This document shows, one piece after another, positions 20,022 to 42,654 of a DNA stretch of 46,877 nt. A model generated the notes under the pieces. It was not told the DNA's origin. It was given only the letters and a program-made list of their open reading frames with translations, and searched no databases. Position numbers and translations under genes: made by a program. Source of the stretch: a virus; the IMG/VR virus record IMGVR_UViG_3300031974_002598, positions 1 to 46,877 of that record. One strand, written 5' to 3'. How positions within the stretch are numbered: the stretch's first letter is position 1; every line of letters starts with the position of its first letter.

Positions 20022-21161
20022 ATGGCAAATTTATTTGAAAGCAACTGGTCCGCAACCAAAGATGCGTTGATGGAAGGTCTTAGTGGCCAACGTCAAAAAA
20101 CTATGGATGTGGTACTCGAAAACGCAAAGCGTCATTTGTCAGAGGCCGCAACCGCAGGTAGCACAGGTGCAGGTTCAGTAGCAACTTTAAACAAGGTTAT
20201 GTTACCTTTGATCCGTAGGGTTATGCCTTCCGTGATCGCAAACGAACTAGTTGGCGTTCAGCCAATGACTGGTCCAGTAGGACAAATCCACACACTTAGA
20301 GTCCGTTATGCGGAATCAGGTGGTGGCGCAACAGCAGGTGATGAGGCATTAAGCCCATTCAAACTTGCTTCTACATATGCAGGCTCTCCAGATGCTACGG
20401 CAACTGCTGAGGGTACTCCAGGTAGAAAAATGTCAATCCAAATCTTAAAAGAAACTGTCGAAGCAAAGACAAGACGTTTAAGTGCTAGATGGACATTCGA
20501 AGCGGCACAAGATGCAGAAGCAATGCACGGTGTTGACGTTGAAGCAGAAATCATGCAAGCTCTTGCACAAGAGATTGTTGTTGAAATCGACCAAGAAATT
20601 ATTGGTTCGCTTCGCTCATTAGCAGGCGCAGGTACAACTTTAGACTTTAGTTCTTTAAGTGGTACAAGTGTTTACGTTGGTGACCGTCACGCGGCATTAG
20701 CAATCGAGATCAACAGAGCGGCTAACAGAATCGCGGCTAGAACAAGACGCGGCGCTGGTAACTACGTTGTTGTTTCTCCAGAAGCGTTAACAATCCTCCA
20801 GAGTGCAAGCACATCAACATTTGCTCGTACAACTGAAGGTTCATTTGAAGCGCCTACAAACACTAAGTTTGTTGGTACATTAAATGGTACAGTTAAAGTA
20901 TTCGTAGACAACTACGCGGCTGACGGTACTAAAGTACTTGTTGGTTACAAAGGTTCAAGCGAAACTGACGCTCCTGCGTTCTACTGCCCATACATTCCAT
21001 TAATGAGCACAGGTCCAGTTATGGATCCTGCAACATTTGAGCCAGTAGTGAGCTTCATGACCAGATATGGTTACAAAGAGCTTACAAATACTGCTTCATC
21101 GCTCGGTAATGCGGCAGACTACGTTGATGCTATTACATTAGCAAACGTTGCATTCCAGTAA
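20022..21161 (+). CDS. gp23: Major capsid protein gp23
   Basis: 379 residues. Motifs characteristic of T4-like gp23 include LIRRVMPSVIANELVGVQPM, RKMSIQILKETVEAKTRRLSARW, AEIMQALAQEIVVEIDQEI and the C-terminal PVVSFMTRYGYKEL. HK97-fold shell protein. A gp21-type cleavage site LSE/A is present at residues 39-42, which would remove a ~41-residue N-terminal peptide (T4 cleaves after residue 65). It is much shorter than T4 gp23 (521), lacking much of the insertion domain region. An intrinsic terminator follows directly. Confidence 0.95.
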   Translation: MANLFESNWSATKDALMEGLSGQRQKTMDVVLENAKRHLSEAATAGSTGAGSVATLNKVMLPLIRRVMPSVIANELVGVQPMTGPVGQIHTLRVRYAESGGGATAGDEALSPFKLASTYAGSPDATATAEGTPGRKMSIQILKETVEAKTRRLSARWTFEAAQDAEAMHGVDVEAEIMQALAQEIVVEIDQEIIGSLRSLAGAGTTLDFSSLSGTSVYVGDRHAALAIEINRAANRIAARTRRGAGNYVVVSPEALTILQSASTSTFARTTEGSFEAPTNTKFVGTLNGTVKVFVDNYAADGTKVLVGYKGSSETDAPAFYCPYIPLMSTGPVMDPATFEPVVSFMTRYGYKELTNTASSLGNAADYVDAITLANVAFQ

Positions 21162-31028: not shown

Positions 31029-31106
31029 CTGTGTAGGTAAAATTTACAAACATATACACATAACAGTACACACTTCATTTATAGACTAACAGAGGTGAGT
31101 ATCACT

Positions 31107-31403
31107 ATGACAGAAATTTTTGAATTAATAGCCGATGTCGGCGCACCCATTGCAGGTTCTATTGTCATGGGTTTCTTTATCTTTTTAGTCATTAAACAAA
31201 TAATGGAAGGAATTGTAGACCAGGTTAAAACTCTGACTATGTTTTGCAAAAGTTTAGAAGCAAGAGCAAGTACTATGAGTAACGAAATGATGAAAATAGA
31301 TTTGTTAGTCAGTAGTGCATTAGAGCTACGTCCTGACACAGAACGTATTTCACGTGCAGAAAATTTTGTCGAAGACGGCAAAGTGGATGCTAGGAGAGAT
31401 TAG
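31107..31403 (+). CDS. Small membrane/coiled-coil protein A (curli operon first gene)
   Basis: 98 residues from ATG 31107, chosen over the GTG at 31095 because AGAGGTGAG is well spaced before the ATG. One transmembrane helix (about residues 10-35, PIAGSIVMGFFIFLVIKQIM) is followed by a long charged helix. It is similar to the next gene: both have 'I.D.G.PI', one membrane helix, then 'ID.L...V...LE.R'. The pair looks like a duplication. It could be a holin-like or an inner-membrane partner of the secretion channel. Function unknown. Confidence 0.75.
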   Translation: MTEIFELIADVGAPIAGSIVMGFFIFLVIKQIMEGIVDQVKTLTMFCKSLEARASTMSNEMMKIDLLVSSALELRPDTERISRAENFVEDGKVDARRD

Positions 31404-31750
31404 TGGACGAAGTAACCGGAGTAGCACAACTTATAAGTGATTATGGATTTCCTATAGTCATGATGGTAGGACTGGGTTATTTTGTGTATTTTATTTGGAA
31501 TTTTATTGGAGAACACATAGACCCAGCATTAGAAGAAATGCATATAGCATTAATAAGGGTTATAGATAAAACCCGTATGCTGGATCAAGACATGATCAGA
31601 CTACAGCAAAAAGTAAATGTGGTATTAGAGTATAGAGCTAAAGAAAAAATTATTAAGCAAGCAGAACAGCAAAAACTGATTGATGAGCTGAAAGCAAAAA
31701 ATAAACCTTTAGGCAGTGCAGTAATACCCAAGGAGAGTAAAACAAAATGA
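31403..31750 (+). CDS. Small membrane/coiled-coil protein B (paralogue of A)
   Basis: 115 residues, GTG start at 31403 overlapping the upstream stop, with AGGAGAG upstream. N-terminal membrane helix (YGFPIVMMVGLGYFVYFIWN), then a helical domain with LDQDMIRLQQKVNVVLEYRA and a lysine-rich tail. Overlaps the CsgF gene by four bases (ATGA). Its coupling to csgF suggests a role with the channel, but a holin/antiholin pair with gene A is an equally open possibility. Confidence 0.75.
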   Translation: MDEVTGVAQLISDYGFPIVMMVGLGYFVYFIWNFIGEHIDPALEEMHIALIRVIDKTRMLDQDMIRLQQKVNVVLEYRAKEKIIKQAEQQKLIDELKAKNKPLGSAVIPKESKTK

Positions 31751-32292
31751 TGACAGACAAAGACTGGGCATTATTAAAAAGCCAAATAGGTCCTCACATT
31801 TGGACCGGTACAGATTTATTTAAAGCATTTGCGTTTGGATTGTTTTTAGGATTATTATTCATGAGTCCTTTAGCATTAGCAGACCAATTGACTCACAAGT
31901 TTAAAAATCCAAGTTTTAGTGGCGTAGGCACAGGCGCACATTACTTGACAATCGAAAACCAAGAAAAAAGTCGTAAAGACAAAATTAAGGACGATATAGA
32001 AGCGGCACTTAAAGCGGCACAAAGAGAGGAAGAAAACTCAACTCTTAATAAGTTCTTGAGAAACTTGGAAAGCAGAATTTACAGTCAGATATCTAAACAG
32101 TTAGTAGACAGTATGTTTGGTAACGAAGAAGGTGCTGACTACGGTGTGTTTACTATTGAAGGTAACACTGTAACATATGAAAGATTAATTGGCGAAGACG
32201 GTATAGAAATCATTCGCTTGATGATTGTTGCAGAAGACGGATCAACAACAACTATTGATATTCCAGTTGGTGTAGGAAATTTAGGCGGCTAA
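31747..32292 (+). CDS. csgF: CsgF-like curli assembly factor
   Basis: 181 residues. A 25-residue charged N-terminal segment precedes a hydrophobic signal (LFKAFAFGLFLGLLFMSPLALA) with probable cleavage after A45. The mature protein begins DQLTHKFKNPSFSGVGTGAH, matching the start of bacterial CsgF ('FxNPxFGG...'). In CsgF this segment enters the CsgG barrel and forms the second constriction. The C-terminal domain (SKQLVDSMFG, then YERLIGEDGIEIIRLMIVAE and TTIDIPVG) also follows the CsgF plan, which ends in a small beta domain. The long n-region is unusual. It overlaps csgG by one base. Confidence 0.88.
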   Translation: MMTDKDWALLKSQIGPHIWTGTDLFKAFAFGLFLGLLFMSPLALADQLTHKFKNPSFSGVGTGAHYLTIENQEKSRKDKIKDDIEAALKAAQREEENSTLNKFLRNLESRIYSQISKQLVDSMFGNEEGADYGVFTIEGNTVTYERLIGEDGIEIIRLMIVAEDGSTTTIDIPVGVGNLGG

Positions 32293-33185
32293 TGAAGAAC
32301 GGAATACTAGCAATTTTGCTTGCAATACTAACGTCTGGATGTGCTAGTTTGGCAGTACCAGGAAACAAAATGACTGGCGATTGGTGCTGGGACGCCACTA
32401 TGGAATGTATAGAGCCACCAAAGCAAGTAGAATTACCTACATATGAACAATTAAGAAAACTACCACCAGCAGAGCAACAGCCAGTGGTAGCAGTATATAG
32501 TTTTGGCGATTTAACCGGACAAAGAAAACAAGGTGATCAACCACTTTACAGTACAGCAGTTACTCAAGGTGCAAAGGAACTGCTAATAGATGCACTCAAA
32601 GCGGCAGGAGCAGGAGATACTGGAAACGGTACCTGGTTCCGAGTAGTTGAAAGAGGAATCAGTTTGGATAGTTTAATTCGAGAGAGACAAATTATTCGAA
32701 GCACCAGAGAAGACTATTCAAAAGTAACTGGAGAAGAACAACCAGAATTACAACCAATGTTGTTTGCTGGTATGTTATTTGAGGGAGGAATAGTTGGATA
32801 TGACACAAACGTAGAAACAGGCGGACTTGGTGCCAGATACTTGGGTATAGGTGGTACAAGTCAATACAGAAGAGACAGTGTAGTTGTTTCGCTTCGTGCT
32901 GTAAGCACACTAACAGGCGAGATTATACTTAATGTACAAACATACAAGACTATTTTATCAGTTGGCCTAGCAGGCGATGTATTCAGATTTGTCGACATGG
33001 ATACAAAACTTATTGAGATGGAAACTGGTATGACACAAAACGAAAGTGTAACATGGGCGGTTCGGTCAGCAATTGAAGCGGCTGTGTTGGCACTTATTGA
33101 ACAAGGCGATCAGAGAGGTTACTGGAATATAGATTATCCGGACGCGGATGATGTTCTAACTGATTTGATTGACCTAGACGATTAA
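32292..33185 (+). CDS. csgG: CsgG curli secretion channel lipoprotein
   Basis: 297 residues. Lipobox LTSGC with lipidated C17. The CsgG domain is unmistakable: VVAVYSFGDLTGQRK, YSTAVTQGAKELLIDAL, WFRVVERGISLDSLIRERQI, GGIVGYDTNVETGGLGARYL, GIGGTSQYRRD and QTYKTILSVGLAGDVFRFVD. CsgG forms a nonameric 36-strand outer-membrane pore that exports curlin subunits. Compared with my recollection of E. coli CsgG, constriction residues Y51, N55 and F56 correspond to G, L and Y here (segment QGDQPLYSTAV). Full length, no truncation. Located in a late-transcribed phage operon between CsgF and a curlin-like substrate. Confidence 0.96.
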   Translation: MKNGILAILLAILTSGCASLAVPGNKMTGDWCWDATMECIEPPKQVELPTYEQLRKLPPAEQQPVVAVYSFGDLTGQRKQGDQPLYSTAVTQGAKELLIDALKAAGAGDTGNGTWFRVVERGISLDSLIRERQIIRSTREDYSKVTGEEQPELQPMLFAGMLFEGGIVGYDTNVETGGLGARYLGIGGTSQYRRDSVVVSLRAVSTLTGEIILNVQTYKTILSVGLAGDVFRFVDMDTKLIEMETGMTQNESVTWAVRSAIEAAVLALIEQGDQRGYWNIDYPDADDVLTDLIDLDD

Positions 33186-33207
33186 TATGCATATTATAGG
33201 AGAAAAA

Positions 33208-33930
33208 ATGAATGCGAAGAGTTTACTTACCAGTGCCTTCGCGGTTGTTTGTTTAGGTATGAGCAGTATAGTGTTCGCTCAGAGCACCACAGACAATGAA
33301 ATACTCATCGAACAGGTGGGTGATACATTAAACCTTACAATTAACCAACAAGGTTATGGTAATAAAATATCAGGAGATAGTACACAGAGTACAGATCTTG
33401 TTATTACTGGGGCAACTCTAAATATCGATTTAGATCAAATTGGTAATAGCAATAAGTTTTATGGACCTATTACAGCAGACAGTTTTACTATGGATTGGAC
33501 ATTTACTGGTGACAGTAATATTTGGGACAATTTAATTGGTAGTACTGGTAGTGCTGATAGTGGCGACATTTTAGTAGATGTCACAGGTGATAGTAACACA
33601 TTTGATTTTGATCTAGCAAGTGTAACCAGTGCTGAGAGATTAGACATGGACTTTACACTTTTAGGTTCAAGTAATGTGTTTGATATCGACATCGAAGTAG
33701 ATGACGCAACATGGAACTTTGATATAACAGGCGATAGTAATAATTTCTTAACCAGTCAAACAGACGGTGCTTACCATTTCATGAAAGTTATTCATGATGG
33801 TGATAACGGAGACTTTGATTTAATTCAAAGTTCAGGTACATGTCCTACAGGTGTAACAAGTTGTTACAGTCACATTGATTTGGATATAGATAGTGAAAAC
33901 GCAACTGTACAAATTACTGTTACTGACTAG
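33208..33930 (+). CDS. Curlin-like secreted protein 1
   Basis: 240 residues from ATG 33208, preceded by TAGGAGAA; the ATG at 33187 lacks this site. Signal peptide with cleavage VFA/QST after residue 24. The mature part has degenerate curlin-type repeats built on Gly-x-x/Ser-Asn turns: QQGYGNKI, DQIGNSNKFYG, FTGDSNIW, VTGDSNTF, LLGSSNVF and ITGDSNNF, spaced about 22-34 residues apart with hydrophobic alternation between. This is the pattern of CsgA/CsgB amyloid subunits. It is highly acidic and low in basic residues. Two cysteines near the C-terminus (TCPTGVTSCYS) could form a disulfide. Probable CsgG substrate. Confidence 0.75.
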   Translation: MNAKSLLTSAFAVVCLGMSSIVFAQSTTDNEILIEQVGDTLNLTINQQGYGNKISGDSTQSTDLVITGATLNIDLDQIGNSNKFYGPITADSFTMDWTFTGDSNIWDNLIGSTGSADSGDILVDVTGDSNTFDFDLASVTSAERLDMDFTLLGSSNVFDIDIEVDDATWNFDITGDSNNFLTSQTDGAYHFMKVIHDGDNGDFDLIQSSGTCPTGVTSCYSHIDLDIDSENATVQITVTD

Positions 33931-35062
33931 TATTTTACAGGTTCAAATAAATGCCGCTGAGGCTCAAATTGGCGGCATTTTTGAACAAAGCGGTTCTGTA
34001 GGAGAAATTACCCGTGAAACAGGTGAGAGTATTCTAGCAGAACTTGAGGCCGGCATTGTTTCTATGGATGTAGTAGAAACTGAAAACGGCAGATTAAAAA
34101 TTCAATTTGTAGACGACACACAAGTTTCTATGACAGAACACACTGTAGTAGAAATAAACGAATATGTTTACGATCCCAATCCAAGCAACAGCAAAATGGC
34201 ACTTAACTTTGCACAAGGTACTGCAAGATTCGCCACAGGTAAATTAGGATTAGTACCCAGAGAAAATATACAAATACAAACACCCACAGCGGCAATCGGT
34301 ATTAGGGGAACAGACTTTACAATGACTGTGGACGAATTAGGCAGAAGTTTAGTAATACTGTTGCCAGATGCAGATTGTAATGACGCAAAAAAATTAGAAG
34401 AAGGCTGTTTACCGAGCGGAAGTATTAGTGTAACAAATCAAGGTGGTACACAAATACTCGACGAAGCATATCAAGCAGTTATGGTTAGCACTGCAGAAAC
34501 ACCACCCACAACACCGGTGACCATAGAAAATTTAGATTTAAACATGATTGACAACATGTTTATTGTGAGCCAGCCAGGCGAAGTACAAGAGGCAGTAGCG
34601 GAACAGGAAGCAGAAAATCAGGGTGTGGATTTGTTGGCGTTCGGAGATTTAGACATCGACTTTTTGGAAGAAAATTTATTGCAGGAAAATTTAGAAGATT
34701 TACAGTTTTCAGAATTAGACATTGATTATTTAGGTGTGGATTTATTGGCAAACTTTCTAGATGTAATAGATACAAGTCTAGATATGGATCCTGTTGGACA
34801 AGACAAACAGGACCAAGGTCCTGATAAAATAACAGGTACACTCAATCCTGGTTATGATCCTGTTACCATGTATAACACACTGCTAGACAACAGTGAATAC
34901 ATTTGGTTTTTAAGGGTAGTAGATGGACAAGGCCGTATATCAATCAAAATACCAGTAGGCGGTAACGCCAGAATTGAAAGTGAAACAGAAGGGACGCCGA
35001 GCATTATTTGTGTCAACGATTGTTCGGACATAAATATATACATAAGGCAGACACAGGGATAA
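33893..35062 (+). CDS. FecR-domain periplasmic protein
   Basis: 389 residues from GTG 33893. This start overlaps the curlin gene by 38 bases, but it encodes a convincing signal peptide (MKTQLYKLLLLTSILQ..., cleavage after AAEA, residue 24). The FecR domain covers about residues 35-135: GEITRETGES, LKIQFVDDTQVSMTEHTVV, ALNFAQGTARFATGKLG and IQTPTAAIGIRGTDF. The C-terminal half is acidic, with repeated 'DIDFLEENLLQENLEDL' segments, and ends in a small cysteine-containing domain (CVNDCSDINIYI). Soluble FecR-domain proteins often occur near CHASE2-type cyclases; one is encoded 5.5 kb downstream. Role as sensor or anchor for the curlins is inferred. Confidence 0.85.
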   Translation: MKTQLYKLLLLTSILQVQINAAEAQIGGIFEQSGSVGEITRETGESILAELEAGIVSMDVVETENGRLKIQFVDDTQVSMTEHTVVEINEYVYDPNPSNSKMALNFAQGTARFATGKLGLVPRENIQIQTPTAAIGIRGTDFTMTVDELGRSLVILLPDADCNDAKKLEEGCLPSGSISVTNQGGTQILDEAYQAVMVSTAETPPTTPVTIENLDLNMIDNMFIVSQPGEVQEAVAEQEAENQGVDLLAFGDLDIDFLEENLLQENLEDLQFSELDIDYLGVDLLANFLDVIDTSLDMDPVGQDKQDQGPDKITGTLNPGYDPVTMYNTLLDNSEYIWFLRVVDGQGRISIKIPVGGNARIESETEGTPSIICVNDCSDINIYIRQTQG

Positions 35063-35063
35063 C

Positions 35064-35924
35064 ATGAATATAGAAGAAAAATTAAAAAACATGAAACCAA
35101 GTGATACTCCATTGCTATGGCTTGGCTATACCTTATTGGGCATGATGTTGTTGTTAGGACAACCAGCAAATGCTCAAAGTGCCACAGACAATGTTATTAA
35201 TATCAGCAATCCTGTTAGTGCAGACAATTTAAATCTCGACATACAACAAGCCGGCTACGATAATGAAATCACATTAAGTATTGGCGGCTCATCAAACACC
35301 CTTGACATTTATCAATTGGGTGCAAAAAACACTACCAAGTATACAGACACATGGGGCTCAGGATATGACTGGGGCGGAGATTTAGCAGGCAACAACAATG
35401 ATATCACAGTAAAGCAATACACTGATACCAGCAAAAGTATCTCAGATAACTTTTTCGGCTTCCACATACAGGGCAATAACAACAATGTGTTAGTTGGGCA
35501 GGAATGGTACATAAATGATCAAGGTGTTTACAATACTAATCCTGGAAATGGCTGGGGAGATCATTATTTGCGATTAGACATACATGGTGATTACAATGAT
35601 ATCATTCATACTCAAAGAACAGACAGTGCAAGTGATGGACAAACATCTTATGTGAATGTATATGCAGATTATAATGATGTGTATATACAACAAAGACAGG
35701 GTCAGCACTCGATGAACATGACCATCAATAATGATTACAATGAAGTTTGGTTTACTCAAGCAGGGCAACCAGCACACACTGCCACTGTAACACTTGGTGG
35801 TAATTATCCTACAACTCTTACCGTACAACAAGGAGTACATGCAACTTCAAGTTCACTAAATTACTCCCTTACACAAGATTGTCAAACAGCAGGAGGTTGC
35901 ACTGTAAGTGTAACGCAACAATAA
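35064..35924 (+). CDS. Curlin-like secreted protein 2
   Basis: 286 residues. A long n-region (residues 1-18) precedes a hydrophobic signal with cleavage after PANA, residue 37. Repeats are of the curlin type: QQAGYDNEITLSIGGSSNTL, YQLGAKNT, DLAGNNNDITVKQY, IQGNNNNVLVGQE, IHGDYNDIIHTQ, VYADYNDVYIQQ, INNDYNEVWFTQAG and LTVQQG, with the Q/N ladder typical of CsgB/CsgA. It is richer in Gln, Asn, Tyr and Trp than curlin 1 and so is the better amyloid candidate. Starts two bases after the FecR stop; likely CsgG substrate. Confidence 0.82.
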   Translation: MNIEEKLKNMKPSDTPLLWLGYTLLGMMLLLGQPANAQSATDNVINISNPVSADNLNLDIQQAGYDNEITLSIGGSSNTLDIYQLGAKNTTKYTDTWGSGYDWGGDLAGNNNDITVKQYTDTSKSISDNFFGFHIQGNNNNVLVGQEWYINDQGVYNTNPGNGWGDHYLRLDIHGDYNDIIHTQRTDSASDGQTSYVNVYADYNDVYIQQRQGQHSMNMTINNDYNEVWFTQAGQPAHTATVTLGGNYPTTLTVQQGVHATSSSLNYSLTQDCQTAGGCTVSVTQQ

Positions 35925-36196
35925 TGGAATGTCCTGAAGGTTTAATTTGCTACACAGAAGAAGAATACGAAGAACTTCTTACTGTGATGGAAGAGCATGG
36001 TATCTTTGGTGACGAATTAGCAGAACTTGCTCAACCCGCAATGGGTGACGCAGAAGCAGTAGCAAACTTTACTTGGGAATTGTTGTTTCTCACACCCTGG
36101 GAACTAGCATACATAGCAATACCAATGAGTGTGTTAGCCACATACGGTTTAACTATCTACTTTGCGTATAAGTGGATTCAAAAGAAGTTTTCCTGA
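35924..36196 (+). CDS. Small acidic protein with C-terminal membrane helix
   Basis: 90 residues. ATG at 35924 overlaps the curlin stop by one base. An acidic N-terminal half (EEEYEELLTVMEEHGIFGDE) is followed by a membrane segment (about residues 58-83, ELAYIAIPMSVLATYGLTIYFAY) and a basic tail KWIQKKFS. Predicted single-pass inner-membrane protein with N-outside/C-inside topology by the positive-inside rule. Not recognised. Coupled to the curlin operon. Confidence 0.65.
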   Translation: MECPEGLICYTEEEYEELLTVMEEHGIFGDELAELAQPAMGDAEAVANFTWELLFLTPWELAYIAIPMSVLATYGLTIYFAYKWIQKKFS

Positions 36197-36197
36197 C

Positions 36198-36443
36198 ATG
36201 GGTTATACAGAAGCAGTATTAGTTTTAATACTGAGTACATCATCTGGCGAAATATTAGATAAACAAATTGTTAGATCATTTGTAAAAGATTGGCACTGCG
36301 TACAATTTTATTATGATCCTAAATATACTAGACCTTTACAACAACATGGCTTTGATTATTGGTTAGCAAATAAGGAATACGCACAACCAGGTTACACAAT
36401 CAGTTTTCAGTGTAAACATGTAGGCCCGTATTACACTGCATAA
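36198..36443 (+). CDS. Small protein of unknown function
   Basis: 81 residues from ATG 36198, just after the preceding stop; an in-frame upstream start at 36162 would overlap the previous gene. Composition is aromatic-rich (HCVQFYYDPKYTRPLQQHGF) with two cysteines, and no signal peptide or membrane span is clear. Reads like a small folded alpha/beta domain. Not recognised; last gene of the curli operon. Confidence 0.55.
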   Translation: MGYTEAVLVLILSTSSGEILDKQIVRSFVKDWHCVQFYYDPKYTRPLQQHGFDYWLANKEYAQPGYTISFQCKHVGPYYTA

Positions 36444-36465
36444 ATTAACAGAAAATTAATGTCGT

Positions 36466-36510
36466 TGTAACATAACCTTAACATTTCAAGCCCACTAAAA
36501 TCATAAATAT
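36466..36510 (+). promoter_or_regulatory. Direct-repeat box (Pho-box-like) and late promoter before the porin/transporter pair
   Basis: TGTAACA (36466-36472) and CTTAACA (36477-36483) are 7-mers in direct repeat with an 11-base period. A -10-like TAAAAT follows at 36496-36501, 12 bases later. This is the geometry of PhoB-type boxes (two 7-mers, four-base spacer, box in place of the -35). The late-like box CATAAATAT is at 36502-36510. The rest of the 207-base gap shows nothing I recognise. Downstream are a beta-barrel gene and a PiT-like transporter. The regulator is inferred. Confidence 0.35.
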
Positions 36511-36650
36511 ACTTGTAAAACATTAGACGTGAAGCCCACAAGGCATAGTACTGTTATTAATGTTTCACATATTAACACAATTAATATCAGAACGCAGACA
36601 CCATTAGGAAAAACTGTATTTCTGAACAACTAAACTTTTAGGAGTTCGAA

Positions 36651-37205
36651 ATGAAATCATTTCTAATTGGTCTCTGTGCTATAGTACTGACTATTCCTGC
36701 ATTCGCAGAGACCCCCTCAGAACAAGAATACAATTACAAAATCAAACAGGACGATTGGGAATACACTTTTCGTACCAGAGAAGATCGCTGGCATGTGGAA
36801 GTGGGCAACAAGGTAGGTCCTGTTGAAGTAATGTATAGATATGCAGATCAAGACGGTACCATAGAGAACCGTATTAAATTCACCACAGAGCTCTTTTCTT
36901 ACAAAGACCTTGTTACAGAAGGCAGAATGGAGTATCGTCATTTTGATAACAAAGAGTCACATTGGCGTTATCGTTTCATAGTAGAATACACTCCGCACAT
37001 TACAGGTAATCTTTATCTGTATGCGAAATGGCAACCTCGTTGGAGTTTTAAAGATGCTGGCACTAAGTTTGATGCCAGAGATCAATTGGGCATTACCTAT
37101 AAAGGTGATGGTTGGAAAATAACTCCTTTCATAGAACGCACTAGCACAGAGCACTATGAAAGAAAAATGACAGTGACAGGTATTCACTGGGAGGCTAAAA
37201 TATAA
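36651..37205 (+). CDS. Outer-membrane beta-barrel protein (KdgM-like porin possible)
   Basis: 184 residues. Signal peptide with cleavage AFA/ETPS after residue 19. The mature 165 residues alternate polar and aromatic/hydrophobic residues in about ten strands (WEYTFRTREDRWHVEVGNKV, PVEVMYRYADQDG, WRYRFIVEYTPHI, GNLYLYAKWQPRW, DQLGITYKGDGWKITPFIER). This is the signature of a small outer-membrane barrel similar in size and style to KdgM-type porins. The last residues (GIHWEAKI) do not end in aromatic F/W. SD is TAGGAGTT. Its stop overlaps the ATG of the PiT-like gene, so the two are probably made together. Confidence 0.65.
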   Translation: MKSFLIGLCAIVLTIPAFAETPSEQEYNYKIKQDDWEYTFRTREDRWHVEVGNKVGPVEVMYRYADQDGTIENRIKFTTELFSYKDLVTEGRMEYRHFDNKESHWRYRFIVEYTPHITGNLYLYAKWQPRWSFKDAGTKFDARDQLGITYKGDGWKITPFIERTSTEHYERKMTVTGIHWEAKI

Positions 37206-38149
37206 TGGATATGATGACTTTATTATGGACCGTGCTGGGCTTCAGCATGGCGTCATACACAGTTATCGCCAATGATAGTATCCAAACATTGGGCACATGG
37301 ATTCAATCCAACAAAGAAAAGTTTGATTGGAAAACCATGTGGCTGGGTGCAAGCAGTGTGTTACTGTTTGCATTGTGGTATGGATGGACTGTTAACGGTG
37401 GTGACATATCGTACGGTAGGCTAGATAGAATACCCTATATAGAACCACAATGGTATCACGCACTAGCACCAGGTGTGCTGTTAATACTGACTAGATTTGG
37501 TGTGCCAGTTAGCACATCGTTCTTAGTGTTAAGTGCATTTGCTAGTACCTTTGTGTTAGAAAAAATGCTGGTAAAAAGTTTTGCTGGCTACGGTGTTGCG
37601 GCTATTAGTGCCTATGCAATATGGGCAGTAATATCCAAATGGCTTAATAATGTACAACTGGGCGGCAGTGAGCGTAACTGGACTATTGCACAATGGACTG
37701 TTACTGGTTGGCTGTGGTGGACATGGTTAAGTCATGATATGGCTAACATGGCTGTGTTCTTGCCAAGAGAAGTTAGTGCAACAACACTAGCGGCTATTAG
37801 TGCATTGTTTATTGCTGGCATGGGTTTTATGTTCAGAGAACAAGGCGGCAAGATACAAGGTGTTGTTCAAAGCAAAACAGACACTAACTATGTTAAGAGT
37901 GCAACACTTATTGATTTAGTGTATCTGGTTATACTGTGGTACTTCAAACAGTACAACAACATACCAATGAGCACCACATGGGTGTTTATAGGTTTACTTA
38001 GTGGTAGAGAACTTGCTATTGCTACATTCCAAGGCGGATCAAAGAAACTGGAAGAAGTGTTTCCTGTGATTGCAGGAGACTTTGGTCGCTTGATGGTGGG
38101 TGTTGCGGCAAGCATGGGTATCATTATAGGTATTCATACACTTACCTGA
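37205..38149 (+). CDS. PiT/PHO4-like inner-membrane transporter
   Basis: 314 residues with about nine membrane helices. Two internal repeats each carry the paired PiT signatures. Repeat 1 has ANDSIQTLGT (near residue 23) and GVPVSTSFLVL; repeat 2 has SHDMANMAVFLPRE and NIPMSTTWVFIGLLSGRE. In the PiT family, 'GxND...' and 'P.ST' motifs line the phosphate/cation path. The protein is shorter than PitA (499) and the first motif lacks the usual 'GANDVAN' spelling, so substrate may differ. Coupled to an outer-membrane barrel, which suggests an uptake route across both membranes. A strong terminator follows. Confidence 0.6.
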   Translation: MDMMTLLWTVLGFSMASYTVIANDSIQTLGTWIQSNKEKFDWKTMWLGASSVLLFALWYGWTVNGGDISYGRLDRIPYIEPQWYHALAPGVLLILTRFGVPVSTSFLVLSAFASTFVLEKMLVKSFAGYGVAAISAYAIWAVISKWLNNVQLGGSERNWTIAQWTVTGWLWWTWLSHDMANMAVFLPREVSATTLAAISALFIAGMGFMFREQGGKIQGVVQSKTDTNYVKSATLIDLVYLVILWYFKQYNNIPMSTTWVFIGLLSGRELAIATFQGGSKKLEEVFPVIAGDFGRLMVGVAASMGIIIGIHTLT

Positions 38150-38150
38150 T

Positions 38151-38175
38151 AAATGGGGGCAATGCCCCCATTTTT
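38151..38175 (+). terminator. Strong intrinsic terminator after the transporter
   Basis: Perfect 10-bp stem AAATGGGGGC (38151-38160) / GCCCCCATTT (38164-38173), loop AAT and T-run to 38175. It also lies at the 3' end of the minus-strand genes below and could act in both directions. Confidence 0.9.
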
Positions 38176-38254
38176 ATACTAAAACTAGTTTAGTAATTTT
38201 ATCAATTCTTCCAGATTTCATCATCTTGTCGAATTTTTTAAAAAGTCTTTTCAT
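38174..38254 (-). CDS. 26-residue cationic peptide ORF
   Basis: ATG at 38254-38252 overlaps the stop of the upstream minus-strand gene as ATGA, with GGAGG eight bases upstream inside that gene. The peptide starts MKRLFKKFDKMMKSGRI and ends in KLVLV: seven Lys and two Arg against two Asp, and amphipathic if helical. The precise coupling and strong ribosome site argue that it is translated. Possible membrane-active or regulatory peptide; no homologue recognised. Confidence 0.5.
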   Translation of the reverse strand: MKRLFKKFDKMMKSGRIDKITKLVLV

Positions 38255-38550
38255 GTCATTTCCTCCAAGTCACGAAATTGACATGTCGTCCAACCTTCAG
38301 AATGGTGTAACTTAAAAGTTCGGTGAATGTTTTTGGGTAGTTCTACTTTGCGATATCGCCCTGTTGGGCACTCACGGTGTCGAACTATCTTGCCTTTGTA
38401 GACTGAACCATCTTGTAAATGAAAATAGATAGCAGTCTTACTCAGTGCAATTTGCTGTAAATCACTTCGCTTTATGTGATTGTCAGCCAATGCTGGTCCG
38501 CCTGTAAAGAGCAGGATCAACATGGCTACTATTCCTATTGGCTTCGCCAT
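38251..38550 (-). CDS. Small secreted periplasmic protein
   Basis: 99 residues from ATG 38550 (AAGGAG six bases upstream; two earlier in-frame ATGs lack a proper site). Signal peptide MAKPIGIVAMLILLFTGGPA, cleavage about LA/DNH at 22. The mature 77 residues contain two cysteines (HRECPTG and WTTCQF), likely a disulfide, and beta-like segments (TAIYFHLQDGSVYKGKIVRH). The only minus-strand gene, with its coupled peptide, inside the accessory block. It is not CsgE by eye. Function unknown. Confidence 0.65.
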   Translation of the reverse strand: MAKPIGIVAMLILLFTGGPALADNHIKRSDLQQIALSKTAIYFHLQDGSVYKGKIVRHRECPTGRYRKVELPKNIHRTFKLHHSEGWTTCQFRDLEEMT

Positions 38551-38580
38551 ATCCATCTCCTTATTGTTATGCAACTATTC

Positions 38581-38609
38581 TGCAACAGTAATGTTACAGT
38601 TTTGTTACA
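38581..38609. repeat. Triple 7-mer direct repeat with 11-base period (Pho-box-like)
   Basis: TGCAACA (38581), TGTTACA (38592) and TGTTACA (38603) are separated by four bases each. On the plus strand a -10-like TAAGAT (38621-38626) lies 11 bases beyond the last repeat. It lies in the divergent gap between 38550 (minus) and 38696 (plus). Related to the array at 36466-36483, which carries the reverse-complement 7-mer TGTAACA. Confidence 0.4.
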
Positions 38610-38659
38610 ATGTTATTTATTAAGATCGTATAAAGAATTAACAGAGTTGTGAATCTTTA

Positions 38660-38696
38660 TTGACAAAATCATACATTTCGTGTATTATATAATACA
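38660..38696 (+). promoter_or_regulatory. Sigma70 promoter overlapped by a 16-bp palindrome
   Basis: TTGACA (38660-38665), 17-base spacer and TATTAT (38683-38688). A perfect palindrome TGTATTATATAATACA (38681-38696) covers the -10 and the expected start site, as an operator for a dimeric repressor would. Drives the small membrane/lipoprotein genes from 38696. Confidence 0.7.
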
Positions 38697-38833
38697 TGAA
38701 ACATATGATAAAATGGCTTAAAATCTGTGCTATGTTACTCACAGTGCTGATAGCCATATCAATTATACAGTTAGCAGTTCACAGTATTGAAATAGGATAC
38801 GACCTCATGTATCACAGTGATGGACGACCCTAA
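38696..38833 (+). CDS. Small membrane peptide (possibly leaderless)
   Basis: 45 residues. ATG at 38696 lies where transcription from the promoter at 38660-38688 should begin, so the mRNA would be leaderless or use the second ATG at 38705. Sequence: basic N-terminus (KHMIKWLK), one hydrophobic helix (CAMLLTVLIAISIIQLAV), then an acidic/polar tail. Its 3' end overlaps the next gene by 14 bases. Confidence 0.5.
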   Translation: MKHMIKWLKICAMLLTVLIAISIIQLAVHSIEIGYDLMYHSDGRP

Positions 38834-39131
38834 CAAAATAGACGAACTGTTTAACAAATATATCACCCAACGACTTAGAGGCGGATTACATATTGCATAT
38901 GGTATGCTGTATGTACAAATCAGTCTAATATTCCCATACTTCTTTTATGTGACAATATGTTTAAGTGTCGTAGTCTATTACATATATCTCTGTGAAAAAT
39001 ATGGCTACATGATAGACCATTACACATTTGAAATGATAAGGATCAATGCACACCCAGACCCCGTATTTACTCCAATGCCAGCACCTGAATTCTTTGATCA
39101 TGCTGGCATAGTCGATAAATATATAATGTAG
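38820..39131 (+). CDS. Small two-span membrane protein
   Basis: 103 residues from ATG 38820. An N-terminal charged segment is followed by a hydrophobic region (GMLYVQISLIFPYFFYVTIC, then LSVVVYYIYL) that can form a hairpin of two membrane helices, and then a cytosolic tail with HPDPVFTPMPAPEFFDHAG. Not recognised. Lies in the same transcript as the preceding small peptide, ahead of a terminator-like hairpin. Confidence 0.6.
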   Translation: MDDPNKIDELFNKYITQRLRGGLHIAYGMLYVQISLIFPYFFYVTICLSVVVYYIYLCEKYGYMIDHYTFEMIRINAHPDPVFTPMPAPEFFDHAGIVDKYIM

Positions 39132-39144
39132 GCAAGAAGCCTAT

Positions 39145-39173
39145 AACAGTATAGCAGTTGGCTTACTGTTTTT
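39145..39173 (+). terminator. Probable intrinsic terminator
   Basis: Nested stem AACAGTA (39145-39151) with AGC inside, loop AGTTG, GCT, then TACTGTT (39164-39170) and a T-run. One bulged T in the stem. Confidence 0.6.
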
Positions 39174-39186
39174 ACAAGGAGAGAAT

Positions 39187-39462
39187 ATGAGAAGCATGCT
39201 CAGTATTCTTGCAGTCCTTGGTATATTTTTACTACCATCATGTGCCTCAGTTGGAGCAGTGATTGAAGGTGGTAAAGAATTTACTACAGGTGTAGTAGAT
39301 GGATCTGTTAAGGCGGTTTCAACAATAACCGGAGCCGTTTTAGAAGATGCATCTAACATCGTTGAAACAACAGCAGAAGTTACACAAGGTGTGGTGGAAA
39401 CTGTTGGTAATGAAATCGACGAGCAGACCGACGAACTGCAAGACGCTCCAAAAAAGGACTAA
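39187..39462 (+). CDS. Small acidic lipoprotein
   Basis: 91 residues. Lipobox LLPSC with lipidated C19 after a short signal (MRSMLSILAVLGIF). The mature part is a Val/Thr/Glu-rich helix or turn repeat (GVVDGSVKAVSTITGAVLED, TTAEVTQGVVETVGNEIDEQ) ending in PKKD. AAGGAGAG precedes the ATG. Small lipoproteins in phages can act in lysis (Rz1-like), superinfection exclusion or envelope anchoring; nothing here decides between these. It is not proline-rich like Rz1. Confidence 0.7.
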   Translation: MRSMLSILAVLGIFLLPSCASVGAVIEGGKEFTTGVVDGSVKAVSTITGAVLEDASNIVETTAEVTQGVVETVGNEIDEQTDELQDAPKKD

Positions 39463-39493
39463 GCCTGTTCTCCCGTCGCAAGGAGAGTAAGGC
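39463..39493 (+). other. Hairpin downstream of the lipoprotein gene
   Basis: GCCT/AGGC plus TCTCC (39469-39473) / GGAGA (39482-39486) with an internal bulge and loop CGTCGCAA. No T-run, so it is more likely an mRNA-stabilising or processing element than a terminator. It sequesters the AGGAGA sequence, which otherwise looks like a ribosome site. Confidence 0.4.
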
Positions 39494-39515
39494 CAGTAAT
39501 AGTGAGGATATTAAA

Positions 39516-39572
39516 ATGTTGATACAACAAATTAAAAAATATTGTACAACCAATCCTCAGGAGTGCGAATAA
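39516..39572 (+). CDS. 18-residue peptide ORF
   Basis: MLIQQIKKYCTTNPQECE, ATG 39516, GAGG about eight bases upstream. The stop codon abuts the ATG of the next gene, so translation may be coupled. Two cysteines. Could be a leader peptide for the downstream secreted protein rather than a functional product. Confidence 0.35.
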   Translation: MLIQQIKKYCTTNPQECE

Positions 39573-40076
39573 ATGAAAGCGGCAATGTTAATAGCATTGT
39601 CGCTTTTATCTTTTAGTGCATCAGCAAGTCTTTCCCAGCAACAAATACATGCTATACAAAATGGTTGGCATGCACCCTATAGTCAAAAAACAATAGATAG
39701 AGTATTACAACAAGATACTTTGATTACGTTTGATGATACTCCCAAATATACTATAGTCAATATAAAAACAGAACCTGCAAGTAAATTGCATTGGGCAACT
39801 TTTTGGACGTTGCAACTATTAGATATTTACACTACAAACAAAGGTATGCAATATGACTGTGTAACAGAACTCAACCCTTTACTACCTAAGAGACCCTCAT
39901 TGTTTAGACTTACTTTACACAAAGGTATGTTTTTAACCCCTCTAGTTTTATTAGATAAAGAACTGGCATTCACAGACGCTGAACTTATAAGTGGAACACT
40001 TATAACAGGTGGTGTAGTTGCAAGTAACTTTAACGTCATTAAAAACGCAAAACGCAAGTGTAACAAAATTAGATAA
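39573..40076 (+). CDS. Secreted/membrane protein, DUF5658-like
   Basis: 167 residues. Signal peptide with cleavage about ASA/SLSQ at residue 18. The middle region reads HWATFWTLQLLDIYTTNKGM and then TELNPLLPKRP, with LHKGMFLTPLVLL and a further hydrophobic segment. This 'LDxxTT...xELNPL' arrangement recalls the DUF5658-type small membrane proteins. The basic C-terminus (NAKRKCNKIR) should stay cytoplasmic. Function unknown. The last codons contain the late promoter for the next gene. Confidence 0.55.
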   Translation: MKAAMLIALSLLSFSASASLSQQQIHAIQNGWHAPYSQKTIDRVLQQDTLITFDDTPKYTIVNIKTEPASKLHWATFWTLQLLDIYTTNKGMQYDCVTELNPLLPKRPSLFRLTLHKGMFLTPLVLLDKELAFTDAELISGTLITGGVVASNFNVIKNAKRKCNKIR

Positions 40077-40080
40077 ATAT
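40072..40080 (+). promoter_or_regulatory. Late promoter within the end of the upstream gene
   Basis: GATAAATAT overlapping the stop codon of 39573-40076, 25 bases before ATG 40105. Confidence 0.6.
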
Positions 40081-40104
40081 CAGTGTAAGGTAGGAGTTAC
40101 ACAC

Positions 40105-40572
40105 ATGATGGAGATCGCCGCGGCCATTTCTTTGGCCAGCACTGCATTCAATGCACTCAAAAAAGGCATGGAAACCGGTCGTGAAATCGAGGATATGATC
40201 GATTATTTTGGCAAATGGTTTGAAGCCAAAGAAGCATTGAGCGAGCAAAGCATTAACAGCCAAAATCAACCTTTAGTTAAAAAACTGTTTTCAGGCAACA
40301 GTGTTGAAGCACAAGCATTACAAATTACACATGCCAAACATAAAATAAAACAAATGGAAAAAGAGTTGTATGAGTACTTGTTGTATACAGGACAGCAAGA
40401 ATTTTACAACGACATGATGCGTGAACGCAGAGCAATTCGTGAAGCACGTTTTAGAGAAGCTCAACGCATAGCCGAGCGTAGAAAACTGATATTTGATATA
40501 GTAGTTGGTGGCGCTTTAATAGTAATAACTGTATTCCTCATTGTGGGAATGTTTAGTATAGTTTTATCATAA
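40105..40572 (+). CDS. Conserved T4-like phage membrane-anchored helical protein
   Basis: 155 residues from ATG 40105 (TAGGAGTT upstream; a second ATG follows at 40108). N-terminal EIAAAISLASTAFNALKKGM and the middle PLVKKLFSGNSVEAQALQI, then a charged helix (MRERRAIREARFREAQRIAE) and a C-terminal membrane span (IVVGGALIVITVFLIVGMFS). I recognise this arrangement from hypothetical proteins of marine T4-like phages. Its role is unknown to me. It has its own late promoter, so it is likely virion- or lysis-related rather than part of the curli unit. Confidence 0.7.
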   Translation: MMEIAAAISLASTAFNALKKGMETGREIEDMIDYFGKWFEAKEALSEQSINSQNQPLVKKLFSGNSVEAQALQITHAKHKIKQMEKELYEYLLYTGQQEFYNDMMRERRAIREARFREAQRIAERRKLIFDIVVGGALIVITVFLIVGMFSIVLS

Positions 40573-40576
40573 ATAT
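40568..40576 (+). promoter_or_regulatory. Late-promoter-like box abutting the cyclase start
   Basis: CATAAATAT only five bases before ATG 40582. If used, transcription would begin at or after the cyclase start codon, so the cyclase is more likely read from 40072 or a promoter further up; the match may be fortuitous. Confidence 0.3.
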
Positions 40577-40581
40577 CTATT

Positions 40582-42654
40582 ATGAAATGGTTATACAGCG
40601 GCTGGGCCGTAGCAATTACAGTTTGTTTACTAACAGCACTTAGAGTAACAGACCCCACGCCTGTACAAAGTTTGCGTTCACAGACATTTGATTACTACCA
40701 ACAACTAGATGAAGTCAAACAAAGCAACGAAGTTGTAGTAATAAACATAGGCGAAAAGAGCCTACAACAATGGGGACAATGGCCTTGGCCCAGACAGAAC
40801 ATAGCACAATTGATATCCGACTTGAGAAACTCAAACGCAGGCATCATAGGTCTCAACGTGATGTTTCCGGAACCAGACAGATTTGGTGGCGACGAAGTAC
40901 TAGCCAGTTGGATGAACCAAAACGGCATAGTTTTAAGCCAGACCCCATCTTCCAGAGGCATAAAGAGTTCAGGCCCACATATTGGTACAGCCACAATAGG
41001 ACCAGCACCAGCGACTGATTATTTACTGACGTGGCCTAACCTAGTAACAAACATAGAACAATTAGAAAATGTAGCAGACGGTATAGGAGTAATTGCAAGT
41101 GCTCCGCAACCAGACAATCAGACCAGAACATATCCCTTGGCTGTTGGTGTAGAAGAAAAAATATACCCATCGTTTGCTATAGAACTACTCAGGGTATATA
41201 CTGGTAAGCCAAGTTATGTTCTGAAAACGTCTGAAATAGGTGTACAAGAGTTTGCTGTACCTCCTTTTGAACCTATTATAACACAGCCTGATGGAACAGC
41301 CTATATTCGTTTTAACAATACATTTGAAGAATACGAATATGTAGATGCGAGTAAACTGCCTGACTTAGGTGGAAAGTTCGTTATTGTGGGTGTAAGTGCA
41401 GAAGGTGTTGCCAATCCGGTACCCACACCGAGAGGCAACATATTACCACATTACATACAAGCCCATATGACGCAAAATTTTATTGACGGCAGTAACATTA
41501 CCCGTAATGAGTTATCAGCACTGATAGAGCTTCTGATAGCGTTCTTGAGTATGACATTGATAGCAATAGCAATATACAAGTTACCTGTGTGGGCAGGACT
41601 AGTAACTACAGTTACTATTATAGGCGGAATTGTATACTATAGTGTGCAGTCTTACACTGCCAATTTAGTTTTATTTGACGCAACATTTCCTGCATTAAGT
41701 GCGTTCTTGATATTCACACAAAGTTCATTTAATAACTTTTGGATACAATTTAAACTTAGACAGGAAATCCAAAAGCAGTTTGCAGGGTACTGCTCGCCTA
41801 CAGTTGTGCGTATGCTTCAACAAAACCCTGCACTGATCAAAGACGGTATGAAACGAGAGATCAGTATTTGCTTTAGTGACTTGCGTGGCTTTACTCCATT
41901 GGGAGAAAGTTTTGGCGATGATGTACAAGGATTAACAAAGTTAATGAACGGTTACATGGACGCAATCACACAACCTGTACTTGACGCAGACGGAATGATT
42001 ATCAAATATATTGGTGATGCCAGTATGCATGTACACAATGCACCTAACGATGATCCGCGTCATGCACACTCAGCAGTTATGACAGGACTAAACATGTTAT
42101 CAGCAGTGGAGGACTTTAATGAGAAAATTACTGCAGAAGGCAGACCACCCATTGGTATGGGGGCTGGCATTAATACTGGCTTGGGCTATCTTGGGGAAAT
42201 GGGTTCTACATCGAGACACTCCTATGACGTTCTGGGAGACGCTGTTAGCACAGCCGCAAGAATTGAATCAAAGTGTAAAGAGTACGGATGTTTATTACTT
42301 GTAGGCGAAAACACTTATAAAGAAACCTATGACGAGTTCTTTTATCTCAAAGTAGATGATTTGGCAGTAAAAGGCAAGAGTGTGGGCATTACAATATACA
42401 CAGTGTTAAGCACCTGGGACTATGCTTGGGAAAGCACTAACTGGCCCGCAATACAACCACAGCATGATAAAATGCATGAGTGCTATCGTAATCAAAGTTT
42501 TGATATGGCAATACATTTTTGCAAACAGCTCAAAGGCGAGTTTGATGGTAAAATGGATGCATATTATGACATGTGGATTGAACGTTGCGAGTTTCAGAAA
42601 ACACAAGACTTGCCTGAAGACTGGAATGGCGTATTCATAGCCACCAGTAAATAA
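40582..42654 (+). CDS. CHASE2-domain adenylyl cyclase (class III)
   Basis: 690 residues, full length. N-terminal membrane helix; periplasmic CHASE2 domain (about 25-310) with VVVINIGEKSLQQWGQWPWP and IGLNVMFPEPDRFGGDE; three membrane helices (about 315-395); class III cyclase domain (about 425-610); and a C-terminal TPR-like tail ending LPEDWNGVFIATSK. Catalytic residues: metal Asp D433 (FSDLRGF) and D479 (KYIGD), adenine-selecting pair K475 and D549 (YDVLGD), and transition-state Arg R560. The usual Asn of the 'VNxAxR' motif is Ser (S556, VSTAAR). Expected to make cAMP in response to a periplasmic signal. No good ribosome site is visible before the ATG. Confidence 0.92.
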   Translation: MKWLYSGWAVAITVCLLTALRVTDPTPVQSLRSQTFDYYQQLDEVKQSNEVVVINIGEKSLQQWGQWPWPRQNIAQLISDLRNSNAGIIGLNVMFPEPDRFGGDEVLASWMNQNGIVLSQTPSSRGIKSSGPHIGTATIGPAPATDYLLTWPNLVTNIEQLENVADGIGVIASAPQPDNQTRTYPLAVGVEEKIYPSFAIELLRVYTGKPSYVLKTSEIGVQEFAVPPFEPIITQPDGTAYIRFNNTFEEYEYVDASKLPDLGGKFVIVGVSAEGVANPVPTPRGNILPHYIQAHMTQNFIDGSNITRNELSALIELLIAFLSMTLIAIAIYKLPVWAGLVTTVTIIGGIVYYSVQSYTANLVLFDATFPALSAFLIFTQSSFNNFWIQFKLRQEIQKQFAGYCSPTVVRMLQQNPALIKDGMKREISICFSDLRGFTPLGESFGDDVQGLTKLMNGYMDAITQPVLDADGMIIKYIGDASMHVHNAPNDDPRHAHSAVMTGLNMLSAVEDFNEKITAEGRPPIGMGAGINTGLGYLGEMGSTSRHSYDVLGDAVSTAARIESKCKEYGCLLLVGENTYKETYDEFFYLKVDDLAVKGKSVGITIYTVLSTWDYAWESTNWPAIQPQHDKMHECYRNQSFDMAIHFCKQLKGEFDGKMDAYYDMWIERCEFQKTQDLPEDWNGVFIATSK

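Follow-up and report, generated by a model that had tools for sequence, protein, structure and literature searches.

The stretch analysed here, called the window, is the whole of IMG/VR virus record IMGVR_UViG_3300031974_002598 (46,877 nucleotides). It carries a gene for an exported FecR-domain protein with a curlin-like gene on each side, CsgF and CsgG upstream, and a nucleotide cyclase with a CHASE2 sensor domain downstream. The FecR and CHASE2 genes form a pair that recurs in bacteria away from curli genes and in phages beside a second, unrelated exporter, and the phage FecR protein combines a domain resembling the surface anchor of a giant adhesin with a C-terminal strand of the type that ends CsgB. 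We tentatively favour a reading, held at somewhat less than probable, in which the FecR protein serves as an anchor in the periplasm, attached to the exported fibre and monitored by CHASE2, the whole being a phage surface-fibre module with a load sensor. The gene set itself is already known from publications on pelagiphages and on phage Melnitz, and is not new; the link between FecR and the fibre, and the second version built on another exporter, appear to be so. The cassette comprises the following genes.

31095..31403, + strand: small protein with one transmembrane helix, first of a tandem pair (phrog_18771, E 6.1e-24; hydropathy; no Pfam kinase domain)
31403..31750, + strand: small protein with one transmembrane helix, second of the pair (phrog_18771, E 1.2e-23; hydropathy)
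31747..32292, + strand: CsgF, curli pore accessory protein (PF10614, E 2e-14)
32292..33185, + strand: CsgG, outer-membrane curli secretion channel with N-terminal lipobox LTSGC (PF03783, E 9.8e-46)
33187..33930, + strand: curlin-like beta-solenoid protein 1 (profile match to curlin 2; structure model; beta-helix matches)
33893..35062, + strand: FecR-domain exported protein (PF04773, E 2.8e-11; structure model; profile match to PDB entry 5ix9)
35064..35924, + strand: curlin-repeat protein 2 (Curlin_rpt PF07012, E 1.3e-5)
40582..42654, + strand: CHASE2-domain class III nucleotide cyclase (PF05226, E 1.6e-39; Guanylate_cyc PF00211, E 1e-16)

A sequence-only reading had placed the FecR gene, its flanking curlin-like genes and the CHASE2 cyclase in one viral block. 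Pfam, profile comparison and structure models bear out that content, but the block as then drawn omitted CsgF, CsgG and the two transmembrane proteins, which belong to the cassette. Judged from the genes alone, a type VIII (curli) set is present, with CsgG channel, CsgF and a curlin-repeat substrate. Curlin 1 has no Pfam match; profile comparison with curlin 2 nevertheless identifies it as a curlin relative (hhalign 99.7%), and its predicted structure is a beta-solenoid (pLDDT 80.7) for which Foldseek returned nothing significant and VIA-align generic beta-helix matches only. The FecR frame overlaps that of curlin 1 by 37 nt, the overlap being 31-43 nt in most relatives. The FecR and cyclase genes are not adjacent but 5.5 kb apart; between curlin 2 and the cyclase lie ~4.7 kb of unrelated genes, an interval that varies from 0 to 6.3 kb in relatives.

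The FecR-CHASE2 pair in bacteria and phages

To measure the pairing in bacteria, 60 genomes were sampled across Pseudomonadota; 40 CHASE2 sites from these, with flanks of ~4.5 kb, were compared with 20 control regions shifted along the same contigs. A FecR-domain gene lay near CHASE2 at 20 of the 40 sites and in none of the 20 controls (Fisher 3.5e-5), and a FecR-centred search gave the same pairing against a background of ~3 CHASE2 genes per genome. The earlier supposition that the two genes are neighbours in bacteria thus withstands this check of co-occurrence. Twelve of the FecR-bearing loci have CHASE2 cyclases and eight have other outputs; as both kinds are paired, FecR goes with the sensor domain and not with the cyclase. 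Published bacterial pairs, in Campylobacterota (PMC9239204) and in the Burkholderia BiofilmReg system (PMC5192318), also place an exported FecR protein beside a CHASE2 sensor, and the window conforms, with its gene for an exported FecR-domain protein close to that of a CHASE2 sensor. Neither gene was found within ~8 kb of bacterial curli loci (0/20); the phages have thus coupled two separate cellular systems, a sensor pair and an exporter.

Among viruses, the order transmembrane protein, transmembrane protein, CsgF, CsgG, curlin, FecR, curlin, (insert), CHASE2 cyclase is found also in the cultured phages Melnitz and HTVC008M and in IMG/VR loci. It is near-invariant, being conserved in ~90 viral loci, and the cyclase is present in 44 of the 46 viral FecR loci for which 8 kb or more of downstream sequence is available, so that the co-occurrence expected in phages is also found. 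Pairwise distances among 64 non-redundant viral loci show which part of the cyclase has travelled with FecR. Distances between CHASE2 domains correlate with those of FecR (rho 0.61) and CsgG (0.59), whereas those of the cyclase domain correlate weakly with FecR (0.22), with CsgG (0.21) and, at only 0.29, with the CHASE2 domain of the same protein. Given CsgG, the partial correlation with FecR is 0.39 for CHASE2 and 0.11 for the cyclase domain, a difference of 0.27 (bootstrap 0.15-0.43). These sequence distances indicate an exchange of output domains, with the sensor remaining alongside FecR and the exporter.

A scan with a related cyclase revealed a second cassette, in which the exporter is of the TolC/HlyD kind (loci L185, L197, L204, L207, L220, L225, L106, L181 and L244). 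The FecR domain here is the N-terminal part of a cadherin-repeat protein of 1.0-1.7 thousand amino acids, of which seven distinct examples were seen, and it is followed by a TolC-like OEP protein, a 250-amino-acid membrane protein, HlyD, a CHASE2 cyclase and, mostly, the same transmembrane pair. No exporter ATPase was recognised in this cassette, the 250-amino-acid protein included. At L181 and L244 both exporter types stand side by side or as contig-end remnants, each with its own CHASE2 cyclase. In one TolC-class contig, genes for a baseplate-fibre connector and a T4-type clamp loader support a phage origin; a search of the TolC-class contigs for a T4 portal gave no match, nor did the controls. 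No publication on the TolC/HlyD version was found in the literature searched. The proposal that FecR, the curlins and the CHASE2 cyclase form one envelope-sensing circuit accordingly keeps its FecR-CHASE2 pairing and, as described below, gains a link between FecR and curlin, but it loses its restriction to curli, since FecR and CHASE2 pair with the TolC/HlyD exporter as well.

The FecR domain and the curlin-type tail

The FecR protein has a signal peptide, a FecR or anchor-like domain at ~27-228, a linker at ~229-311 and a C-terminal domain at ~312-389. Its predicted structure shows a beta-rich domain, an acidic disordered linker of low confidence and, at the C-terminus, a beta domain whose last strand is of the CsgB type. 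Phage FecR proteins ended in the pattern hydrophobic-x-hydrophobic-x-Q in 22 of 23 cases and in 78 of 79 in a further sample, where the last position could be Q or N, these being counts of related sequences and not of independent events. The same ending was absent from all 77 bacterial FecR relatives, which in this respect are unlike the phage protein, and occurred in 2 of 357 other phage open reading frames of at least 200 amino acids. Ile384 and Gln386 are invariant in the FecR alignment, in a tail that is otherwise variable around them, and even the sequence-distant FecR of L244 (739 amino acids) retains the ending EVTIIQTD. In one locus (L017:11572-12867) the FecR frame does not stop in its usual place behind the tail strand NITITQTN but runs on, which suggests a lost stop or a frameshift.

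The ending is shared with curlins. It is found in 15 of 19 and 17 of 26 sequences for the two phage curlins, although curlin 1 of the window, ending VQITVTD, is not a strict match. Escherichia coli CsgB ends MAIRVTQR, which fits the pattern, and CsgA does not fit; in most bacterial operons with detected curlins one curlin has a similar end, and the CsgB-like minor curlins often share it. Deletion of repeat 4 or 5 of CsgB abolishes its association with the outer membrane (PMC4551309). The comparison of sequences therefore supports a link between FecR and curlin through a shared C-terminal strand.

The N-terminal domain leads elsewhere. When the FecR profile of the curli class was compared with PDB sequences, the only match under E 0.1 was 5ix9 (E 0.003), the cell-surface anchoring domain of the giant adhesin MpIBP. 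The same entry was found, above all other PDB sequences, by the profile of the TolC-class FecR domains (E 8e-5) and by that of the bacterial CHASE2 neighbours (E 5e-5), and a predicted model of the FecR domain superposes on 5ix9 over 64 columns at 1.2 A in one structural comparison and scores Z 7.1 in another. Retention domains of this sort, which fold internally, are too bulky for passage through the channel (PMC12077191). LapA-type retention modules, to which LapA and MpIBP belong, are thus like the phage protein in both the sequence profile and the fold of the N-terminal domain, and the TolC/HlyD cassette resembles them further in that the domain is fused to adhesin-like proteins. The FecR protein of the window differs from a retention domain heading an adhesin, as it stands on its own and carries a curlin-type tail. 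The LapA systems differ also in their signalling: no LapD was seen in the cassette, and the output is a CHASE2 cyclase and not a receptor for cyclic di-GMP. A LapG-type protease was considered as a partner of the cassette and rejected, because the LapG-family match (Peptidase_C93, ~129 amino acids) occurs in only 2 of 15 phage records (L440 and L441, of 217 and 340 kb) and is far from the cassette in these.

The anchor model and its alternatives

We infer the physical contacts, the direction of signalling, and the product and target of the cyclase in the model that follows. The curlins would leave through CsgG and CsgF, and the FecR protein would reach the periplasm by means of its signal peptide. 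There the N-terminal domain would fold as an anchor or plug, and the CsgB-type strand at the other end may join, or template, the curlin fibre or a secretion intermediate. The membrane cyclase has predicted transmembrane helices at ~4-22 and 313-378 by hydropathy; its CHASE2 domain would read whether FecR is free or is held by fibre and pore, and this would set the activity of the cyclase, perhaps with the help of the small transmembrane pair. There is precedent for a CHASE2 cyclase driven by an outer-membrane partner in CyaD1, CyaD2 and CyaK of Sinorhizobium meliloti, which respond through NsrA (PMC13001267), but NsrA is a beta-barrel that senses a plant protein, and the cyclic AMP is read by Clr, a regulator of the CRP family. 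A broader version of the anchor model is possible though rather more doubtful: marine phages would carry an exchangeable module for adhesin export and load sensing, in which a FecR anchor tied to a curlin fibre (CsgG) or a cadherin-repeat adhesin (TolC/HlyD) is read by a co-evolving CHASE2 domain, so that the infected cell signals the loading of the fibre by an output other than canonical CRP-type cyclic AMP signalling.

Were the model true, a virus would build adhesion machinery on the surface of its host, with either of two different exporters, and monitor it by a dedicated periplasmic sensor. The widespread bacterial pairing would acquire a concrete role for the FecR domains that stand beside CHASE2 sensors, and proteins annotated as 'ferric citrate regulator' would be recast as likely anchors.

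Several observations weigh against the model. FecR loci that have no downstream cyclase exist (L385, L388). The Z score of 7.1 with 5ix9 is, taken alone, middling, and the domain finds its best structural matches in signalling domains of the FecR type (PupR, Z 15.6). As the bacterial FecR proteins beside CHASE2 share the similarity to the anchor, it may mark the domain family rather than anchoring, and speaks for location and fold more than for an established role as anchor. The idea that the entire FecR tail is homologous to curlin was rejected: hhalign gave a probability of 2-3%, although this was the top value among the profiles, and clear correspondence is limited to the last strand. The co-variation of sensor and FecR may also reflect domain swapping from neutral causes. 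In the cyclase, the two metal-site Asp, the substrate-binding Lys and Asp/Thr/Ser, and the Arg are kept, making up the class III set except for the transition-state Asn, which in the lineage of the window is replaced by Ser556 (42247-42249); serine occupies this position in about half of the aligned phage cyclases and in 4 of 29 bacterial CHASE2 cyclases, and such a substitution may lower activity. Of 60 SAR11-family genomes, only 2 were found to encode a domain that binds cyclic nucleotide monophosphates, a count that bears on the cassette generally rather than on the window's own host; none of 15 phage records, some of which are fragments, has such a domain. The suggestion that cyclic AMP links secretion to host physiology is consequently doubtful for SAR11 hosts, and the question arises of what reads the product of the cyclase in hosts that have no cyclic AMP receptors.

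The same evidence bears on other explanations. FecR could be an assembly factor only, replacing CsgE as periplasmic gate or adaptor of the CsgG pore or else nucleating or anchoring the fibre, with the cyclase acting independently. This is unlikely, though it has points in its favour: phage curli loci are without CsgE (PMC9599517), none was noticed in the gene tables of Melnitz and HTVC008M, and a CsgB-type tail together with an anchor-like domain would suit such a factor. It leaves unexplained, however, why FecR pairs with CHASE2 in bacteria that have no curli genes nearby and why it is CHASE2 that co-varies with FecR and not the cyclase domain. If instead the genes were merely inherited together as an envelope block, with no functional circuit between FecR and CHASE2, descent of the phage cassettes from one ancestor would produce the same synteny, and up to 6.3 kb of foreign genes ahead of the cyclase would cause no surprise. 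We consider this improbable, given that the pairing recurs in bacteria and in a cassette with an unrelated exporter, that the order is kept despite insertions, and that the set has moved between phage families, as published in PMC9599517.

Two published proposals fare less well. For Melnitz, Buchholz 2022 (PMC9004378) proposed that CsgG and CsgF form a gated pore that times lysis, which FecR and the cyclase would here modulate; there is little likelihood of this, because curlins are encoded, and the company that the same sensor genes keep elsewhere, giant adhesin-like proteins and a TolC/HlyD exporter, points to display on the surface. That FecR is an iron-responsive regulator of curli genes or iron uptake, as put forward for pelagiphages in PMC9599517, has the name of the domain and the nearest solved folds (PupR) in its favour, yet it is very improbable. 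The protein has a signal peptide, Pfam finds only the FecR domain, hydropathy gives no transmembrane helix, no FecI or FecA gene was seen in the cassette, and the domain is shared with the heads of adhesins. An anti-sigma regulator of the FecIR/PupIR kind was likewise rejected along with iron regulation, the anti-sigma domain and the other defining domains being absent from the FecR protein.

The virus, its relatives and the neighbouring genes

Among the genes of the window, a fragment of a marine T4-like virus, are those for a portal, a late sigma factor, an SbcCD-like nuclease and a major head protein. The head protein (20022-21161) has 69% identity to that of PA5oct-like Pseudomonas jumbo phages, and the virus is therefore probably a jumbo relative and not a pelagiphage. 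Close relatives of the cassette are found on contigs of 217 and 340 kb. Together with the head protein these extend the cassette beyond pelagiphages, from which it was reported with CsgF, CsgG, CsgA/B, FecR and a cyclase by Wittmers et al. 2022 (PMC9599517). Compared with this cassette, in HTVC008M and Melnitz (MZ577097) as well, the window has the same genes in the same order and differs in the nearest relatives of its capsid protein and in the distance of its cyclase past curlin 2. Sibling capture has been proposed as its function (Zaragoza-Solas 2020, PMC7029224). The FecR tail, the similarity to adhesin anchors and the TolC/HlyD version are not found in the passages of Wittmers et al. on the pelagiphage cassette.

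The published pelagiphage cassette has a 'histidine kinase' upstream of CsgF, where the window has the two transmembrane proteins (102 and 115 amino acids), which have no Pfam kinase domain. Cultured HTVC008M and Melnitz have the same kind of transmembrane protein at that position. We infer from position and size that the published 'histidine kinase' genes are those of the transmembrane pair, so the mismatch is probably a matter of labelling and not a difference in genes, and it does not exclude the window from the cassette. In cultured phages the phrog_18771 proteins occur only alongside this cassette.

Within the insert that separates curlin 2 from the cyclase, the interval 36651-38149 encodes a protein with a signal peptide that looks, by eye, like a small outer-membrane beta-barrel, and a 314-amino-acid protein with several transmembrane helices; neither has a PHROG or Pfam match. 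Complete or partial cassettes also occur on contigs binned in metagenome-assembled genomes of Saprospirales, Planctomycetaceae, Flavobacteriaceae, Pelagibacter and others (L099-L105, L142), where they are likely to be phage contamination. A CsgG relative (41.5%) is encoded in a 1,499-base record assigned to Salmonella phage S.Kent 1-2-1 (OR851715.1), which may be a fragment derived from the host or from elsewhere.

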